From Teredinibacter turnerae T7901 (lineage in GTDB: Bacteria > Pseudomonadota > Gammaproteobacteria > Pseudomonadales > Cellvibrionaceae), in the NCBI RefSeq assembly GCF_000023025.1, contig NC_012997.1:3097125-3161124 (forward strand): a stretch of 64,000 nucleotides of DNA. The letters are read 5' to 3'. The position numbers and the translations under genes were made by a program. Positions 30,308-41,549 of this stretch are shown here, piece by piece; positions within the stretch are counted from its first letter, which is position 1; every line of letters begins with the position of its first letter. A model generated the notes under the pieces. The model was given only the letters and a program-made list of their open reading frames with translations. It was not told the DNA's origin and did no database searches.

Positions 30308-33300
30308 ATGAGAAACAGCGAACAAGAGCTCAAACAACTCTACAACGAAATCAATCAAGTTATCCTGTCACGGCAGAACCCGGTAACGGGCTTGCTCCCA
30401 GCCAGTACCTCCGTCAATGCACACGGCGACTACACCGATGCCTGGGTACGCGACAATGTATATTCCATCATCGCGCCCTGGGCCCTCAGCCTGGCCATGA
30501 AAAAAGCAGGCGAAACCCGAGAGGCGGATGAACTCGAACAAGCCACCATCAAGTTGATGCGAGGTCTGCTGCAGTCAATGATGCGCCAGGCCCACAAAGT
30601 GGAAGCGTTCAAACATACCCTCAAACCGATTGATGCTCTGCACGCTAAGTACGACACCGCAACGGGCCTCACAGTTGTCGCCGACGATGCCTGGGGCCAT
30701 TTGCAAATCGACGCAACATCTATTTACCTGTTAATGATCGGGCAAATGACAGCCTCCGGTTTACGCATTATTCAAACCTATGACGAAGTCGATTTTGTCC
30801 AAAATCTTATTTACTACATCGCCAGTGCGTTCCGCACGCCCGACTACGGTATCTGGGAGCGTGGCAATAAAATTAATAATGGCAAGCCGGAAATTAATGC
30901 CAGCTCACTCGGCATGGCCAAAGCTGCGCTACAAGCATTGGATGGGTTGAATTTATTTCACAAAGGCGGGCCAACCCGCGCGGTTGTGCACTCTGTACCA
31001 GACGCACTATCGATGGCACGCACCAACCTCGCCGCGCTGCTGCCACGAGAATCGCTCTCTAAAGAAGTGGACGCTGCACTACTCAGTATTATTGGCTTCC
31101 CCGCATTTGCGGTTGGCGATTCCATTTTGGCAACCGAAACACGCGATGAAATTTTAAAAAAGCTGGGCGGTATTTATGGGTTAAAGCGATTTTTGTGGGA
31201 CGGCCACCAGACCGTTATCGAAGATCCATCTCGCTTGTACTACGAACACTCAGAGTTAGCCAACTTTCAGCATATTGAATCCGAATGGCCCTTGTTTTTT
31301 TGCTATCTCTATCTGAACGCACTGTTCACTGGCAACACGCAGACCGCAAGCCACTATTATCAGAAAATTCAAAATCTGATGATCGAAAAAAATGGTATCG
31401 GCCTAATTCCCGAATTGTATTATGTACCCGAGCATGCCATAGAAGCCGAAAAGCGCAATCCCAAAAGCCAGGCCCGCGTCGCCAACGATAACTTACCGCT
31501 GGTTTGGGCGCAGAGCCTGTACTACACCGGCAGGTTGATGGACCTAGGATTGCTAAAACCGGACGACCTCGACCCGGTAAAATTGCGCAGTACCACAACC
31601 CAAATGACCAAAGCACAGGTTGCGCTTGTGGTACTGGCTGAAAATGAAGATGTGAAAAAAATCCTCGCGGATAACGGCGTAATTGCCGAAAGCATTCTGG
31701 ATATCGCCCCGCTAAAAGTTATCTCTGCCCCACATCTGGTGGAGGCCTACGCACAAGTTGGCGCCAACCACAAATTGAACCTCACCGGACGGCCGCGACG
31801 ACGACTTTTGAGCCTTGCAAGTTCGCAGACCTACTGTATTAACGACCACCAGTTTTTGTGTTTGTCGTGGATTCAAGGCGATTCCGATGATGACTATGTG
31901 CATCACGATATCGCGCGGGTAGCGACCATGGTGCGAGAAGAAATCTCGCATATTCGTAAGCACTGGCTCAACTCCGAAGTTGCCGTTTTTACTTTTATGG
32001 TCAACGAAGCCCTGTGTAACTCGCCCGACGCTCACTTACTCTACGAGTGCCTGCAAGGATTTCAGCTACGAACAGAAGACGAGAATATTGGTTATGCTTC
32101 CGCCAATCTTGCGTTCCGCGCGTCAAGAGAAAACTGGCTTCTCGCGCCCGATATCTGCCTAACCCCCATTACCAGCCGCGAGGTGGAAGCGCCACCGGCA
32201 ATCGAATGGAATACCCAAAGCCTGGCGCTGCTTCAAGCGCTTGATGGCAGCCAGCTCGCACAGGCAGATAAGCTCGTCGAATACTTCGCCGACCGACCGC
32301 TGCACGAGTCTGCCAGTGATACCAATAAACGGATTACTGCCCGCGACCTGCTGAATACAATTTATAGCAATGCCTTACAAAACCATCAGTGGCTGATTGC
32401 CCGGCTCGCTTTCGCACTATCGGGCCGGGTAAAAGACGATCTGTCGGACTATCTTTCGGTTCTCAGCTCACGTCACTTCTCTGTGATCGTTGGCTCAGTA
32501 GATACCAGCGAGTTTGGCTTGGAACAGTCGCTTAACAACAGCCAGATTGTGGAGGCGTTGCGCGAAGCCAGTATTAACCCCATCGACCACTGTCTGCTCC
32601 AGGAATTGCTGGAGTCCATCGGTATATTGCAACGCACCAACCCACAGCTTTTCGAAGGGGTGCGCTCAATACAGTTGAGTAACCTTCTGAATCTGTGTGC
32701 CGATGGCGTAAAAAGCGATAACTACAAAGAATCCGTGCTGGAGCTCGGCCAGCTCAGCCCGAGTGCAGTGTTAGACCGGCTCTATAAAATCTTCAGCTCC
32801 CAGCGAAGCGTATTCGCCAAAGGCTTAAAACGCAGTCTTTCTGCGAAAAACATGAGCGATTCCGATGTGGAAGCAATGGATCTTGACTGGTTTGAATGGC
32901 GCTTTGAGCGCGGCCTTATTCTCAGTTTGAGCCGCGAGTTCCTGGAAAAGATCTGGCAAACCCTTGCAATTGCACCCAAAATTATTTTTGCCGAATCGCA
33001 CAACCCCGCGTGCATTATTGAAAGCGAATTTGTTCGCAGCTCGATGACCCCCGGCGAGGAAATTTTTGCACAACTCATTAACGATGCACTTGCCCAATTA
33101 CACCCGCCCTATTTCCGAAGCGCGATTGTCGAGGTGCTCCTGGCAATAACAGAATTTCACGAGGAGCATCCAAAAGAGCGTGTCGAGCACCCAATCAACC
33201 TGGAAGAAATACTGGAATGCGCGGCCGATATGAGCAGCTCCAGCAGCACACAAAAAGCCACAGCAAAAATCGACCTGCTACTGGAAGAATCCCCGCAGGT

Positions 33301-33367
33301 GCTAAACGGCTATATTCTCAGCAGTTTGCCTACGTATTTAAAGAATTTAGGTAAAGAGAGCGAATAA
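30308..33367 (+). CDS. Phosphorylase kinase alpha/beta-like GH15-fold protein
   Basis: A 1019-residue homologue of the regulatory alpha/beta subunits of animal phosphorylase kinase. The first 400 residues form a GH15-like (alpha/alpha)6 domain. Near-identical stretches to the animal proteins are DAWVRDNVYSIIAPW, LMRGLLQSMMRQAHKVEAF, GHLQIDATSIYLL, MTASGLRIIQTYDEV, NASSLGMAKAALQALD and GFPAFAV. The C-terminal 600 residues include segments like those around LNLTGRPRRRLLSL. No signal peptide, so cytoplasmic. No gamma-type protein kinase or calmodulin is in the window. In animals the alpha/beta chains bind calmodulin and hold the kinase; the bacterial role is unknown. A strong terminator follows, and the gene appears monocistronic. 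Confidence 0.85.
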   Translation: MRNSEQELKQLYNEINQVILSRQNPVTGLLPASTSVNAHGDYTDAWVRDNVYSIIAPWALSLAMKKAGETREADELEQATIKLMRGLLQSMMRQAHKVEAFKHTLKPIDALHAKYDTATGLTVVADDAWGHLQIDATSIYLLMIGQMTASGLRIIQTYDEVDFVQNLIYYIASAFRTPDYGIWERGNKINNGKPEINASSLGMAKAALQALDGLNLFHKGGPTRAVVHSVPDALSMARTNLAALLPRESLSKEVDAALLSIIGFPAFAVGDSILATETRDEILKKLGGIYGLKRFLWDGHQTVIEDPSRLYYEHSELANFQHIESEWPLFFCYLYLNALFTGNTQTASHYYQKIQNLMIEKNGIGLIPELYYVPEHAIEAEKRNPKSQARVANDNLPLVWAQSLYYTGRLMDLGLLKPDDLDPVKLRSTTTQMTKAQVALVVLAENEDVKKILADNGVIAESILDIAPLKVISAPHLVEAYAQVGANHKLNLTGRPRRRLLSLASSQTYCINDHQFLCLSWIQGDSDDDYVHHDIARVATMVREEISHIRKHWLNSEVAVFTFMVNEALCNSPDAHLLYECLQGFQLRTEDENIGYASANLAFRASRENWLLAPDICLTPITSREVEAPPAIEWNTQSLALLQALDGSQLAQADKLVEYFADRPLHESASDTNKRITARDLLNTIYSNALQNHQWLIARLAFALSGRVKDDLSDYLSVLSSRHFSVIVGSVDTSEFGLEQSLNNSQIVEALREASINPIDHCLLQELLESIGILQRTNPQLFEGVRSIQLSNLLNLCADGVKSDNYKESVLELGQLSPSAVLDRLYKIFSSQRSVFAKGLKRSLSAKNMSDSDVEAMDLDWFEWRFERGLILSLSREFLEKIWQTLAIAPKIIFAESHNPACIIESEFVRSSMTPGEEIFAQLINDALAQLHPPYFRSAIVEVLLAITEFHEEHPKERVEHPINLEEILECAADMSSSSSTQKATAKIDLLLEESPQVLNGYILSSLPTYLKNLGKESE

Positions 33368-34351: not shown

Positions 34352-37018
34352 ATGCGCAGAAACCCCCTGAATCCCGTGCCAATTCTAGGTCTAACCCTGG
34401 CATCACTGCTTTTCACCGGTTGCTCACCGGATAACAACCCAGTACCCAAGCCCGTTAGCGAGCGCAGTACAGCCAATGAACAACCCGCCTACATGGACAC
34501 GACTCTGGACATTGACACCCGCGTTGATGATCTGGTTTCGCGGATGGATCTGGCAGAAAAAATATCTCAGATGTACAACGAATCACCAGCTATCGAGCAT
34601 TTGGGTATTGCAGAATACGATTGGTGGAACGAAGCCCTGCACGGTGTCGCACGGGCAGGCAAGGCCACAGTTTTTCCTCAGGCAATAGGCATGGCCGCCA
34701 TGTGGGACAGGGAGACCATGTTCGATATCGCTGAGGCCGTCTCCGATGAGGCGCGAGCGAAACACCACTACTTTGTTGAAAACGGCGTACATTTTCGCTA
34801 CACCGGGCTCACCTTCTGGTCACCCAATATCAACATCTTCCGCGATCCACGCTGGGGCCGCGGCCAGGAAACCTACGGCGAAGACCCCTACCTTACTGGC
34901 GAGCTGGCACTGCCTTACATCAGCGGCCTGCAGGGAGAAAATCCGAAGTACCTGAAAACCGCTGCCATGGCCAAGCACTTCGCAGTACACAGCGGCCCCG
35001 AAAAGTCACGCCACTCAGATAACTACATCGCCAGCCCGAAGGATTTAAACGAAACCTATCTACCCGCGTTCGAAAAAGCGGTGGTGGAAGGCGATGTGGA
35101 ATCGGTGATGTGTGCCTACAACCGCGTCAATGACGAGCCCGCGTGTGGCAACGATATGCTGCTAAAAGAAACCCTGCGCGGGAAGTGGGGCTTTAAAGGC
35201 CACGTTGTTTCCGACTGTGGCGCGATCGCGGACTTCTATGCTCCAGAGGCTCACCACGTGGTCATGGCGCCTGCGGCCGCAGCTGCCTGGGCCGTGCGCA
35301 GTGGTACCGACCTGAACTGTGGCACCGACCGCCTGAGCACTTTCGCTAACCTGCACTTTGCATTGCAGCGGGAAATGATTACACAGGATGAAATTGATCA
35401 ATCCGTAAAACGCCTGATGAAAACCCGCTTCAAACTTGGTATGTTCGATCCGGACGATCAGGTTCCCTATTCCAAAATTCCGATGGATGTAGTCGGCTCA
35501 CAGGCCCATCTCGCGCTCACTCAAAAAGCCGCTGAGAAGTCGTTTGTACTGCTCAAGAACAGCGGCATTCTGCCCCTCAAAAAATCCAGTAAGGTCGCCA
35601 TTATCGGGCCTAACGCCACCAACCCGACTGTGCTCGTGGGCAACTACTTTGGCGATCCAATCAAACCGGTGACGCCCCTGGACGGCATTCAGCAGTACCT
35701 CGGCGAAGAGAATGTGTTTTACGCCCCGGGATCTGCGCTTGCGGGTGACACCTTTTCTCACTACCAGGTTATATCTGCAGACCACTTTTTCCACAAAGAT
35801 GACAATGGCGCACTAAAGCCTGGCTTGCAAGCTAACTATTACAATGCCTCAGCCAAAGAAGGCCGGGAGGAGGTGCCGGTATTTTCTCGGGTCGACGCCA
35901 ACATCGACTTTTTCTGGCAGCGCTCACCCGTCGATAACACTGTGCGTGATGAATTCGCTGTCGAGTGGTCCGGCGTGCTGATACCCAAGGAGTCAGGGGT
36001 GTATCAATTCTCCACTCGCGAAACATTAAAAATCGATGGCGAGGAAGTAAAAGATGGAATCTACCTCAACGCTAATCAGGAGTACGCGTTCGAAGCCAGC
36101 CAAAAATTTGTCCACGCTTTTTGGGGGCAACCGCTTGAAGCCTACGCCAAAGTCAGTTGGCTGAACAGCTCGCGCAACCTGGTTGCCGATGCTGTGGCCG
36201 CGGCGCAAAAAGCCGATGTAATCATCTTTACCGGCGGGATATCGGCTGATCTTGAAGGTGAAGAAATGAGCGTCGAGATCGAAGGTTTCGACCATGGAGA
36301 CAGAACAGATATCCGCCTGCCCGAGCCACAACGCAAGCTCTTGGCAACGCTTAAAAAACTTAACAAACCCATTGTTTTAGTGAATTTCAGTGGCAGCGCA
36401 ATTGCACTTAACTGGGCGAATAATAACGTAGACGCGATTTTGCAAGGGTTTTACCCCGGCGAGGCAACCGGTACAGCGCTCGCACGAATTTTGTGGGGCG
36501 AGGTTTCCCCCTCGGGCCGCTTGCCGATTACGTTCTATCGCAGTCTGGACGATTTACCCGGTTTTAAAGATTATGCCATGACCAACCGGACCTATAAGTA
36601 CTACCAGGGGGATGTACTCTACCCATTTGGTTACGGCCTGAGTTACACCCAATTTGCTTACAGCGAGTTAAGTGCGCCAGCCACAATGGCAAGTGGTGAA
36701 CCGCTCGCTATAACCGCTCAGGTGAGCAACAGCGGCAAAGTCGCCAGCGATGAAGTTGTGCAGGTTTACGTGTCGATGAAGGTACCCGGATTAAGCCTGC
36801 CACAGCGGGAATTAAAGGAATTCAAGCGTATTTACCTGGAACCTGGCGCCTCACAGACCGTCGAATTTAGCATTGCTGGCAAAGATCTCAGTTATGTGGA
36901 CGACCAGGGCGTTCGACACCCTTACCACGGGCCATTAACACTGAGCGTTGGCGGCGGTCAGCAGCCGTATGTCTCCGCCACTGGCGCCGTGAGCAAAACG
37001 ATAACAATCGAACAATAA
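34352..37018 (+). CDS. GH3 beta-xylosidase/glucosidase lipoprotein with PA14 insert
   Basis: An 888-residue lipoprotein glycosidase; lipobox LFTGC near residue 24. The GH3 N-domain carries YDWWNEALHGVARAG, WGRGQETYGEDP, KHFAVHSGPE and the nucleophile Asp288 in HVVSDCGAI. After the second domain starts (KVAIIGPNATNP), a PA14-like insert spans about residues 490-610 (beginning GLQANYYN), then the domain resumes, ending in a fibronectin-III-like domain. WWNEALHGVAR is seen in beta-xylosidases of family 3, so xylan-type substrates are likely. It is 12 bp from GH67, which fits glucuronoxylan breakdown in one operon. Confidence 0.9.
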   Translation: MRRNPLNPVPILGLTLASLLFTGCSPDNNPVPKPVSERSTANEQPAYMDTTLDIDTRVDDLVSRMDLAEKISQMYNESPAIEHLGIAEYDWWNEALHGVARAGKATVFPQAIGMAAMWDRETMFDIAEAVSDEARAKHHYFVENGVHFRYTGLTFWSPNINIFRDPRWGRGQETYGEDPYLTGELALPYISGLQGENPKYLKTAAMAKHFAVHSGPEKSRHSDNYIASPKDLNETYLPAFEKAVVEGDVESVMCAYNRVNDEPACGNDMLLKETLRGKWGFKGHVVSDCGAIADFYAPEAHHVVMAPAAAAAWAVRSGTDLNCGTDRLSTFANLHFALQREMITQDEIDQSVKRLMKTRFKLGMFDPDDQVPYSKIPMDVVGSQAHLALTQKAAEKSFVLLKNSGILPLKKSSKVAIIGPNATNPTVLVGNYFGDPIKPVTPLDGIQQYLGEENVFYAPGSALAGDTFSHYQVISADHFFHKDDNGALKPGLQANYYNASAKEGREEVPVFSRVDANIDFFWQRSPVDNTVRDEFAVEWSGVLIPKESGVYQFSTRETLKIDGEEVKDGIYLNANQEYAFEASQKFVHAFWGQPLEAYAKVSWLNSSRNLVADAVAAAQKADVIIFTGGISADLEGEEMSVEIEGFDHGDRTDIRLPEPQRKLLATLKKLNKPIVLVNFSGSAIALNWANNNVDAILQGFYPGEATGTALARILWGEVSPSGRLPITFYRSLDDLPGFKDYAMTNRTYKYYQGDVLYPFGYGLSYTQFAYSELSAPATMASGEPLAITAQVSNSGKVASDEVVQVYVSMKVPGLSLPQRELKEFKRIYLEPGASQTVEFSIAGKDLSYVDDQGVRHPYHGPLTLSVGGGQQPYVSATGAVSKTITIEQ

Positions 37019-37030
37019 ACAGGAAAAACA

Positions 37031-39211
37031 ATGCATAAAATATTACGTACCTTTGCTTTTTTGCTGCTGTCGGTATTGGCATGCAGCCCGGCGTTTGGCC
37101 AAAAAATATTTGATGGCGAGGACGGTTATCGGCTCTGGTTGAAATACGATTTGTTGTCTGATCAACAGAGTATCAAAACATACCGGAAACAAATCAGCTC
37201 AATATACGTTGCCGGAGATTCAGCGACGACTACCGTCATCCGCGATGAGCTTTCACACGCGCTCTCAGGCCTTTTAGGCAAACAACCTAAATTTGTCGAA
37301 GCTGTTGGCAAACACGCTTTAGTGGTGGGCACCCCGTCATCCTCTGCAGACATCCGCAACGCGGACCTGTCGGAGCTGAAGGGTCTGGGCAAAGAAGGCT
37401 TTGTAATTAAATCGCTCGAGTTGAGCGGAAAGCCGGTAACCCTGATTGCAGCCAATACGGATGTGGGGGCGCTATACGGTACCTTTCACTTATTGCGTTT
37501 GATACAAACCGAGCAGCCTTTACGCGAACTCGAAATTGTCGAGAAGCCTAAAATCGATGTTCGAGTGCTCAACCACTGGGACGATATGGATCGCCATGTG
37601 GAACGCGGTTTCGCCGGGGAGTCAATTTGGGACTGGCATAAACTGCCTGATTATACCTACCCGCGCTACTACGACTACGCGCGCGCGAATGCGAGTATTG
37701 GTATCAACGGCACGGTGTTGAATAACGTTAACGCCAACGCAATTACGCTGACACCACACTATCTGGACAAAGTTGAAGCATTGGCCGACCTGTTTCGTCC
37801 CTACGGCATCAAGGTATACCTTTCAATAAAATTCAGCTCACCCCAATTAATCGGTGGACTGAAAACGTCCGACCCGCTGGACCCCACTGTAAAACAATGG
37901 TGGAAGGATAAAGTCGAGGAAATCTATGCGCGCATACCCGACTTTGGCGGCTTTTTGGTAAAAGCGAATTCCGAAGGCCAACCCGGCCCTGGTGATTTCG
38001 GTCGCACCCATGCCGAGGGCGCAAATTTGCTTGCTGATGCACTGGCGCCTCACGGCGGTGTTGTTATGTGGCGAGCGTTTGTGTATGCCAATGAAAAGAA
38101 CGAGGAGCGTTCGAAGCAGGCCTATTCCGAATTCAAGCCGCTCGATGGCAAATTTCACGATAACGTACTAATTCAGGTGAAGAACGGCCCAATCGATTTT
38201 CAGCCACGCGAACCCTTCAGCCCGCTTTTTGGCGCAACGCCCAAAACACCCATGATGATGGAATTTCAAATCACCATGGAATACCTGGGCTTTAGCACCC
38301 ATCTCGTGTATCTGGGAACAATGTACGAAGAGGCATTGCAATCTGACACCTATGCCAAAGGCAAGGGTTCAACCGTGGCCAAGGTTGTCGATGGTTCACT
38401 GTTTAACAATCACATATCTGGCATCGCCGGCGTATCGAATATCGGCACCGACCGCAACTGGACTGGCCACATTATTCTTCAGTCCAACTGGTATGTGTTC
38501 GGCCGCCTCGCGTGGGATCATGAACTGACCACAGCCGACATTGCAGACGAATGGGTTCGGATGACCTTGAGCAACGACGAAAAAGTGGTATCAACGGTTA
38601 CCGATATGATGATGCGCTCGCGTGAAATAACCGTGAATTATATGACCCCTCTCGGTTTACACCACATTATGGGCGTAGGGCATCACTACGGGCCCGGCCC
38701 CTGGGTGAAAGATCTGGGCCGAGAGGACTGGACTTCTGTCTACTATCACAAAGCAGGCAAAGACGGCATTGGATTTGACCGGTCACCTACCGGCGTTAAT
38801 TCTGTTGAGCAATATTTTTCACCACTAAAAGAAGAGTACGCAAAAGCAGAAACAACACCCGAAGAATTGCTACTTTGGTTCCATCACTTACCCTGGGACT
38901 ACACCGTTAAGTCCACCGGGCGTGACCTGTGGGATGAACTTGTTCACCGTTACTATCAAGGCGCTGCGGATGTAACAGCGATGCACAATCAATGGCAGTC
39001 TCTGCAGGACGAACTCGATCCGCTGCAATATCACCAAGTAGATATGGCGTTAACTATTCAGGAAAAAGAAGCTCGCTGGTGGCGCGATGCTTGTGTGACC
39101 TACTTTCAAACATTTTCTCAACGGCCGCTGCCAAAAGGGTTTGAAAAGCCCGAAAAAACGCTTAAAGAATATATGGACATGCGCTTCCCTTACGCTCCAG
39201 GTCAAGGCTGA
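37031..39211 (+). CDS. Alpha-glucuronidase (GH67)
   Basis: Removes 4-O-methyl-glucuronic acid from the ends of xylo-oligosaccharides. The 726-residue protein has a signal peptide (LRTFAFLLLSVLACSPAFG). Catalytic residues can be placed by analogy with the Cellvibrio japonicus enzyme: Glu315 in VKANSEGQPGPG, Asp389 in NGPIDFQPREP and Glu417 in ITMEYLG. The catalytic Asp-Glu spacing of 28 matches that enzyme. A cleavable rather than lipid signal suggests a periplasmic enzyme, unlike its lipid-anchored GH3 partner. It is the second gene of a GH3-GH67 pair closed by a terminator. Confidence 0.93.
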   Translation: MHKILRTFAFLLLSVLACSPAFGQKIFDGEDGYRLWLKYDLLSDQQSIKTYRKQISSIYVAGDSATTTVIRDELSHALSGLLGKQPKFVEAVGKHALVVGTPSSSADIRNADLSELKGLGKEGFVIKSLELSGKPVTLIAANTDVGALYGTFHLLRLIQTEQPLRELEIVEKPKIDVRVLNHWDDMDRHVERGFAGESIWDWHKLPDYTYPRYYDYARANASIGINGTVLNNVNANAITLTPHYLDKVEALADLFRPYGIKVYLSIKFSSPQLIGGLKTSDPLDPTVKQWWKDKVEEIYARIPDFGGFLVKANSEGQPGPGDFGRTHAEGANLLADALAPHGGVVMWRAFVYANEKNEERSKQAYSEFKPLDGKFHDNVLIQVKNGPIDFQPREPFSPLFGATPKTPMMMEFQITMEYLGFSTHLVYLGTMYEEALQSDTYAKGKGSTVAKVVDGSLFNNHISGIAGVSNIGTDRNWTGHIILQSNWYVFGRLAWDHELTTADIADEWVRMTLSNDEKVVSTVTDMMMRSREITVNYMTPLGLHHIMGVGHHYGPGPWVKDLGREDWTSVYYHKAGKDGIGFDRSPTGVNSVEQYFSPLKEEYAKAETTPEELLLWFHHLPWDYTVKSTGRDLWDELVHRYYQGAADVTAMHNQWQSLQDELDPLQYHQVDMALTIQEKEARWWRDACVTYFQTFSQRPLPKGFEKPEKTLKEYMDMRFPYAPGQG

Positions 39212-39280
39212 GCCGCGGGTAATCAACCCCAGCAGCCAAACTGCAGAACCAATTAGCCAACGACCAGTTGACTAACCAGA

Positions 39281-39313
39281 GGCACCACAGTGAAAACTGC
39301 GGTGCCTTTTTTA
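39281..39313 (+). terminator. Terminator of the GH3-GH67 operon
   Basis: GGCACCACAG pairs with CTGCGGTGCC (one mismatch) around a short loop, followed by TTTTTTAT. Confidence 0.9.
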
Positions 39314-39461
39314 TATCCGTTTCTATACTTGATTAAAAACAAACAGGTCCCGAATAGTCTTCCCCGCTTAGCCCACCGCAAACCTTTAAAGAAAACGCGG
39401 TGATAAGATGATTTGCATCCAGCAATACGACAAAAAATAACAACCTAAGAGGACATGAGTT

Positions 39462-41549
39462 ATGCCTGTTGCTTACTACGTGGTGTTCATAGCCGCGATC
39501 GTCGCTCTGGCGTACGGCATCGTCGCAACCCGGTGGATTTTAGCTTCACCCACGGGTAACGAGAAAATGGTGGAAATCGCCAGTGCCGTGCAGGAGGGTG
39601 CACGAGCTTACCTGAACCGACAGTATGGGACTATTGCCATTGTGGGCGTAGTCGTTGGAATAATTCTCGCGCTTCTTTTAAATATCTGGGTTGCGCTTGG
39701 CTATGTTATTGGCGCAGTTCTTTCTGGCGCTGCCGGTTATATTGGAATGAATATTTCCGTAAGAGCAAACGTCCGCACTGCGGAAGCGGCGCGCTCGAAA
39801 GGCTTGAAAACCGCATTGGATATCGCCTTTCGCTCGGGGTCCATCACCGGCATGCTCGTTGTGGGCCTGGCGCTATTAGGTATTGCGGGCTATTACACAC
39901 TGCTGCAACTGCAATTCGATCTCGCCACCGACGAGGGCGCCCGCAGTGTACTCGAAGCCCTGGTTGGCTTGGGCTTCGGCGCTTCACTTATTTCTATTTT
40001 TGCGCGTCTTGGCGGCGGTATCTTCACCAAAGGCGCCGACGTGGGCGCCGACCTCTCCGGCAAAATTGAAGCCGGTATTCCCGAAGACGACCCCCGCAAC
40101 CCAGCCGTGATTGCCGACAATGTGGGCGATAACGTAGGCGATTGTGCCGGCATGGCGGCAGACCTCTTCGAAACCTATGTGGTGACAATTGTTGCTTCGA
40201 TGCTGTTGGGCGCGCTGTATTTCACCGGAGACACCCGTGAAACACTGATGTTCTATCCGCTGTTGATCGGCGCTGTGTGTATCTTCGCCTCGGTCGTTGC
40301 TACCCTGTTTGTACGGTTAGGAAAAAGCCAGAACATCATGGCCGCCCTCTACAAAGGGTTTATTGCCAGCGCTGTGTTATCAGCCATTTTAGTGGTAGGT
40401 ACCACCCATGTTCAAATTGGCTTGAGCACCCAGTTAGCGGGCACCGATTTAACCGGTTGGTCGCTGGTGCTTTGCGCAATGACAGGCCTGGTAGTTACCG
40501 CGCTCATTGTGTGGATTACCGAGTACTACACCAGTACGGAATATCGCCCAGTTAAAATGATCGCCGATGCTTCCACCACAGGCCATGCAACCAACATTAT
40601 CCAGGGCCTGGCGATCTCGATGGAGTCCACCGCCCTGCCCGTTCTTGTCATCTGCGCAGGCATCGTAGTGTCCTACATTTGCGGCGGTCTCTACGGTATT
40701 TCCGTTGCCGCAACCACGATGCTGGCGCTCGCTGGGATTGTGGTCGCTCTGGATGCATTTGGTCCGGTAACGGATAACGCTGGTGGCATCGCCGAAATGG
40801 CAGAACTGCCAGAAGAAGTGCGCAGCACCACGGATGCCCTCGACGCAGTGGGCAACACCACCAAAGCGATTACCAAAGGCTACGCGATTGGTTCTGCTGG
40901 CCTGGCAGCGCTGGTACTGTTTACAGCCTATACCACCGACCTCGAGCACTACTTCCCCGGTTTGGATGTGAACTTCAACTTGTCCGACCCTTACGTGGTT
41001 ATCGGTCTATTTATTGGCGGGCTGCTGCCTTACCTGTTTGGCAGCGTGGCGATGCAAGCGGTAGGTCGCGCTGGCGGTAAAGTGGTAAATGAAGTGCGCC
41101 GTCAGTTTCAGGAAATTCCCGGTGTGCTGGAAGGCACCACCAAACCTGAATACGGCACCTGTGTCGATATGCTCACCAAGAGCGCCATCCGTGAAATGTT
41201 AATGCCCTCTCTGCTACCCGTGCTCGCGCCTGTCGTCATCTATTTTGTGATAAACATGGTTGCAGGCCAGGCGGCGGCGTTTGCTTCGCTGGGTGCGATG
41301 TTGCTGGGAACGATTGTGACCGGTTTGTTTGTTGCAATCTCTATGACCTCTGGCGGCGGAGCCTGGGATAACACCAAAAAAGCGATTGAAGATGGCGCCC
41401 ACGGCGGCAAGGGTTCAGAAGCGCACCAGGCGTCTGTCACCGGCGACACCGTCGGCGACCCCTACAAAGATACCGCAGGCCCAGCAGTTAATCCGATGAT
41501 TAAAATTACCAATATTGTCGCGATTCTGTTGCTGGCGGTGCTAGCCTAA
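39462..41549 (+). CDS. hppA: Membrane-bound proton-pumping pyrophosphatase
   Basis: A 695-residue polytopic protein (about 16 membrane segments) that couples hydrolysis of pyrophosphate to proton export. Substrate-binding loops include [18 protein letters not shown] and [14 protein letters not shown], and the conserved [18 protein letters not shown] lies near the C-terminus. The potassium-dependence motif reads GNTTKAIT with Lys468 and Thr471; a Lys here marks the potassium-independent class. It has its own leader and terminator, so it is a single-gene transcript. Confidence 0.96.

Follow-up and report, generated by a model that had tools for sequence, protein, structure and literature searches.

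The gene at 30308–33367 (+) of the window, the 64 kb stretch of DNA analysed here, raises the question of what a bacterium does with a protein that resembles the alpha and beta subunits of animal phosphorylase kinase (PhK), and what those subunits did before they became regulators. PhK was among the first protein kinases to be studied. The open reading frame, which was confirmed exactly as first described, encodes 1,019 amino acids and lies in a genome consisting of one contig of 5.19 Mb. In a Pfam search, the protein matched GH15 over residues 8–790 (6e-70) and KPBB_C, the ‘Phosphorylase b kinase C-terminal domain’, over residues 832–987 (2e-20; 32801–33268, +), the two following one another in a single colinear chain and both scoring above the Pfam cut-off. 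Its first domain, D1, is a GH15 (alpha/alpha)6-barrel assigned from Pfam PF00723 and a fold match, and spans residues 1–420 (30308–31567, +), the boundary being approximate. A search of NCBIfam with the protein returned no match. Inspection by eye revealed no obvious signal peptide, and the C-terminus, which ends in NLGKESE, lacks a CaaX farnesylation motif.

The original prediction, that this is a homologue of the animal PhK alpha and beta chains, proved stronger than claimed. When the protein was compared with all PDB chains using phmmer, human PHKA1 (E 1.6e-166) and PHKB (E 3.2e-128) were matched colinearly over the whole length, and at E≤1 no other sequence was found, an ordinary GH15 enzyme included. 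Identity over the first ∼557–560 residues is 46.9% to PHKA1 and 37.5% to PHKB; a comparison with a PHKA1 segment gave E 2e-158, and a cyanobacterial member of the family is 56% identical to PHKA1 (E 8e-257). The likeness had been placed in the first 400 residues; it is indeed found there, but it does not stop there and extends through the C-terminal domain. An AlphaFold model of the protein (pLDDT 74.7, pTM 0.71, with low pLDDT in the active-site loops) aligned with the cryo-EM chain of PHKA over 906 residues (Z 48.1, rmsd 6.8 Å) and with that of PHKB over 917 residues (Z 40.8, rmsd 7.2 Å). In a tree in which eukaryotes were represented by the two human sequences, PHKA1 and PHKB fell together on one side of a branch and all bacteria on the other, with support of 89/87, which is not strong; the window protein was nested within a clade of its own family, the Cellvibrionaceae.

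The occurrence of the gene in this genome is not due to an isolated transfer, since it is carried by all eight searched members of the genus and by hundreds of other bacteria. It was found, with one match per carrier genome, in 44 of 145 relatives of the window genome and in 14 of 369 sampled Gammaproteobacteria, and Synechococcus elongatus, included as a control, also gave a match. A scan of named genomes yielded at least 587 bacterial relatives, the best 80 of which are mostly from Methylococcales, together with further Gammaproteobacteria (Thiotrichales, Thiomicrorhabdus) and with cyanobacteria. Conservation is uneven along the chain. A pair of proteins from the same genus is 79% identical in the N-terminal 565 residues as compared with 51% in the rest, and KPBB_C, which is fast-evolving in Cellvibrionaceae, scores about 70–100 bits in members from that family as compared with 225–360 bits in other bacterial and cyanobacterial members. 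The C-terminal half of the window family (approximately residues 578–1019) thus has the appearance of an interaction surface that has been freed or is diverging. A literature search, which left aside the contents of Pallen 2003, found no paper on the bacterial family.

Whether the bacterial domain could be catalytic depends on the GH15 acid pair, to which the original prediction had drawn attention. Both positions are Glu in 121/121 bacterial sequences: Glu184 (30857–30859, +), equivalent to PHKA1 Glu185, is the predicted general acid, and Glu369 (31412–31414, +), equivalent to PHKA1 Glu371 and to a Lys in PHKB, the predicted general base, both on the basis of conservation and alignment. The PHKA1 pair has been named as catalytic in the structure paper (PMC10978961). 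Arg48 and Asp49, which correspond to the −1 subsite pair of GH15 enzymes, are kept in 120 of the 121 sequences, the remaining one having a gap. Upstream of them (Tyr42 to Asp49, 30431–30454, +), the near-invariant Tyr42 is a putative base-assisting residue: its spacing to the Asp is the same as that of Tyr337/Asp344 in TtGA and Tyr326/Asp333 in AgGD, and this Tyr contacts the general base in Thermoanaerobacterium thermosaccharolyticum glucoamylase and Arthrobacter globiformis glucodextranase (PMC12446779, from which these roles are taken). Tyr42 also aligns with a Tyr of an ordinary GH15 encoded in the same genome, in an alignment that is statistically weak (hhalign E 0.028, probability 1.8%); the same alignment pairs the Tyr/Trp/Arg-Asp, Trp-Glu and Asn-x-Pro motifs and leaves the base Glu residues offset by at most one or two columns. 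Two further elements are invariant in bacteria: His300-Gln301, which together with Arg294 marks a candidate +1 subsite loop (31187–31210, +), and a patch after the base comprising Asn393, Asn395, Leu398 and Ala401 (31484–31510, +), which differs in both PHKA1 and PHKB.

In one respect, the site departs from that of inverting GH15 enzymes. These have Gln after the catalytic base (PMC12446779), whereas 119 of 121 bacterial sequences have Leu at position 370, so that specificity may differ. Pro368 and Ala401 match the inverting pattern and not that of dextran dextrinase. GH15 enzymes matched the AlphaFold model in its first domain only, the best being KfIG, the isomaltose glucohydrolase of Kribbella flavida (5z3d/5z3e; Z 27.8 over ∼331 residues), while Thermoanaerobacterium glucoamylase (1lf6) gave Z 25.7. 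The latter additionally has an N-terminal beta-sandwich.

The gene is isolated in the window, flanked by a gene for a fatty-acid cis/trans isomerase (CTI) and a convergent YceI gene, and within the 64 kb neither glycogen genes nor, as had been predicted, any kinase gene were found. Neighbours shared within the genus reflect the genus's own gene order only (photolyase, CTI, TruD side). Downstream of YceI, at 34352–41549, lie genes for a GH3 protein, a GH67 alpha-glucuronidase and a membrane H+-pyrophosphatase, which have no connection with the question considered here. Evidence for function from operons comes from the loci of relatives. At 54 of 121 loci, the PHK-like gene is followed immediately, within 100 bp and in the same orientation, by a glucokinase gene, whose identity was confirmed by PF02685 on representatives; the loci are not independent samples, and Methylococcales dominate the named set. 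This linkage is found at most Methylococcales loci, in Thiotrichales, in Thiomicrorhabdus and in several other families. One locus (L034, in genome G018) has glgX, glgB, the PHK-like gene, a GH13 gene and glk in a row, another (L040) has glgX-glgB followed by the PHK-like gene, and in a third (L041) the gene adjoins glk and Entner–Doudoroff genes, namely those for KDPG aldolase and 6-phosphogluconate dehydratase and a Zwf-like gene identified by similarity. In cyanobacteria, no neighbouring gene is common to more than 6 of 18 loci. Kinase-like genes occur near 4 of the 121 family genes, two of the four being from the same species. In Methylotuvimicrobium buryatense, a divergent Ser/Thr-kinase-like ORF of 1,099 amino acids (L057:12514-15810, +) adjoins the PHK-like/glucokinase pair, and kinase-like matches also lie near the gene in two Methylomonas loci (L112 and L114). 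The window genome encodes five Ser/Thr kinases, none linked to the PHK-like gene.

The family co-occurs with glycogen synthase. Among the 145 relatives, glycogen synthase is present in 44/44 carriers as compared with 35/101 non-carriers (Fisher 1e-15), and across the sampled Gammaproteobacteria in 14/14 carriers as compared with 196/355 non-carriers (p 4e-4), both counts ignoring shared ancestry. A profile search found no match to the glycogen phosphorylase family in 11 of the 44 carriers, G018 included, one of these genomes being 72% complete. In the window genome, glgB-glgX-glgP-glgC-glgA form a cluster, and a single glucokinase gene lies away from the PHK-like gene. Glycogen phosphorylase appears to be split in two frames in one genome (G061:C1:485432-488931) and to contain an internal TAG in another (G080:C8:33674-35806), through possible decay or assembly error. 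Genomes G070 and G083, from the same genus as the carriers G011 and G042, appear to be neither carriers nor to have a glycogen synthase match, possibly through joint loss. In methanotrophs, the relevant parts of two reports derive intracellular free glucose mainly from glycogen and ascribe it to GlgP, GlgX and MalQ, those parts making no mention of the PHK-like gene (PMC8062543, PMC6406325).

Taken as a whole, the data favour the view that the PHK-like protein is a cytoplasmic GH15 exo-alpha-glucosidase that frees glucose from glycogen or dextrins for glucokinase, and that animals turned such a protein into a regulatory scaffold; we regard this as probable. A free-glucose-producing enzyme is suggested because a conserved GH15 active site is combined with a tie to glycogen synthase and adjacency to glucokinase. 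The bacterial role, described as unknown in the original prediction, can thus be narrowed to glycogen/dextrin hydrolysis by the neighbours, the co-occurrence with glgA and the conserved active site; the catalysis, the substrate, the free-glucose product and the origin of the animal regulators in an enzyme of this kind are what we infer. Working by the inverting mechanism of GH15, in which Glu184 would serve as acid, Glu369 as base and Arg48/Asp49 would keep the glucose in the −1 subsite, the protein would remove one glucose at a time from non-reducing ends, either of glycogen itself or of dextrins that GlgX has detached from it. Glucokinase would then phosphorylate the released glucose. Such an enzyme would act alongside glycogen phosphorylase and would seem to replace it in some species.

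Other explanations are compatible with parts of this evidence. The protein might be a GH15 hydrolase or transglucosidase acting not on glycogen or dextrins but on another small alpha-glucoside, such as trehalose, isomaltose, maltose or a stored osmolyte, and we hold this to be a minority possibility, though the most serious one. Trehalases and isomaltose glucohydrolases are among the members of GH15, and the same two Glu occur in a homologue that is a retaining transglucosidase (PMC12446779); the best fold match to an enzyme is an isomaltose glucohydrolase, and linkage to glucokinase would suit any producer of glucose. Nevertheless, the glgX-glgB operons and the presence of glycogen synthase in every one of the carriers among the relatives point to a storage glucan, and Pro368 and Ala401 conform to the inverting pattern rather than to that of dextran dextrinase. 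The window genome, moreover, has a better candidate for a trehalase in its second, ordinary GH15, a protein of 597 amino acids (L002:841-4052; C1 about 3999207-4002418), whose gene overlaps the start of an ORF that by eye resembles trehalose-6-phosphate synthase (OtsA) and which may act on trehalose. A search of the PDB with this second protein gave pentatricopeptide artefacts only.

It is somewhat less probable still that the bacterial protein is a non-catalytic glycogen sensor or scaffold which, as PhK alpha and beta do, would bind glucan and control a Ser/Thr kinase or glycogen phosphorylase. In its favour are the complete PhK architecture, with a C-terminal domain that in the animal proteins touches the kinase, the five Ser/Thr kinases of the window genome and the inactivity of PHKA in spite of its Glu pair. 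A scaffold role in bacteria is made less likely because the potential partners are unlinked, kinase-like genes being so rare near family members, and because the phosphorylase to be regulated can be absent. Furthermore, the active-site residues are invariant across bacteria while the regulatory PHKB has lost several of them, and conservation of the protein is lowest in its C-terminal half. As for an ordinary GH15 glucoamylase having no more than its fold in common with PHKA/PHKB, the outcome that the original prediction had set against homology, the Pfam GH15 match is in its favour, but the E-value to PHKA1, the lack of any ordinary GH15 among the PDB matches, the presence of KPBB_C and the failure of phmmer to match the protein to the second GH15 of its own genome rule it out with near certainty.

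Human PhK showed no glucoamylase activity when maltose, isomaltose or glycogen was the substrate, and PHKA retains both Glu yet shows no activity (PMC10978961). We compared PHKA1 with the 124 positions in residues 1–577 that are near-invariant (at least 98.5%) in bacteria. PHKA1 retains 112 of them, and most of its 12 changes lie in three patches adjoining the catalytic motifs, a placement that relies on the sequence motifs and the weak alignment to ordinary GH15. In the Thr34–Tyr42 loop, His39 and Gly40 are deleted and Tyr42 is replaced by Gln; His300-Gln301 is replaced by Tyr-Lys; and the third patch is formed by Asn393, Asn395, Leu398 and Ala401. Most of the same positions are altered in PHKB too. 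These losses of active-site support may explain why glucoamylase activity is absent from human PhK, although PHKA has a Tyr of its own two residues upstream of the site aligned to Tyr42, which could possibly compensate. In the evolutionary sequence that we envisage, animals would have acquired and duplicated the protein, lost the residues supporting the active site and kept it as a kinase-binding scaffold. The fuller proposal, that an active bacterial enzyme forms with glucokinase a phosphorylase-independent route from glycogen to glucose-6-phosphate, that it is ancestral to the PhK regulators, and that alpha was inactivated by losing the loop with the base-assisting Tyr and the support residues rather than the Glu pair, seems to us about equally likely to be right or wrong. 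If true, it would provide a candidate ancestor pointing to the activity of the animal subunits prior to their regulatory role, bear on why PhK alpha and beta carry a glucoamylase-like domain, and name specific residues whose loss could explain why that domain is dead in humans. Methanotrophs, cyanobacteria and bacteria that degrade polysaccharides might then also possess a glycogen-breakdown enzyme that has so far gone unrecognised.

Among known systems, the enzymes with the same D1 fold, K. flavida isomaltose glucohydrolase (5z3a-e) and 1lf6, have the acid and base Glu in common with the window protein, and 1lf6 also its Tyr-to-Arg-Asp spacing; they are, however, only 14–18% identical to it and have Gln beside the base where it has Leu. 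The unstudied bacterial and cyanobacterial genes belong to the same family, with a C-terminal half that has diverged in the Cellvibrionaceae members. The metazoan regulators are homologous to the bacterial protein over the whole length. PHKA (PHKA1/PHKA2) has in common with it GH15, KPBB_C and both catalytic Glu, but has a longer linker and a CaaX end, whereas the bacterial protein has neither and travels without a kinase gene. PHKB is further removed, with Lys at the base position, Gln at Arg48 and 35 of the 124 near-invariant positions altered, as compared with 12 in PHKA1.
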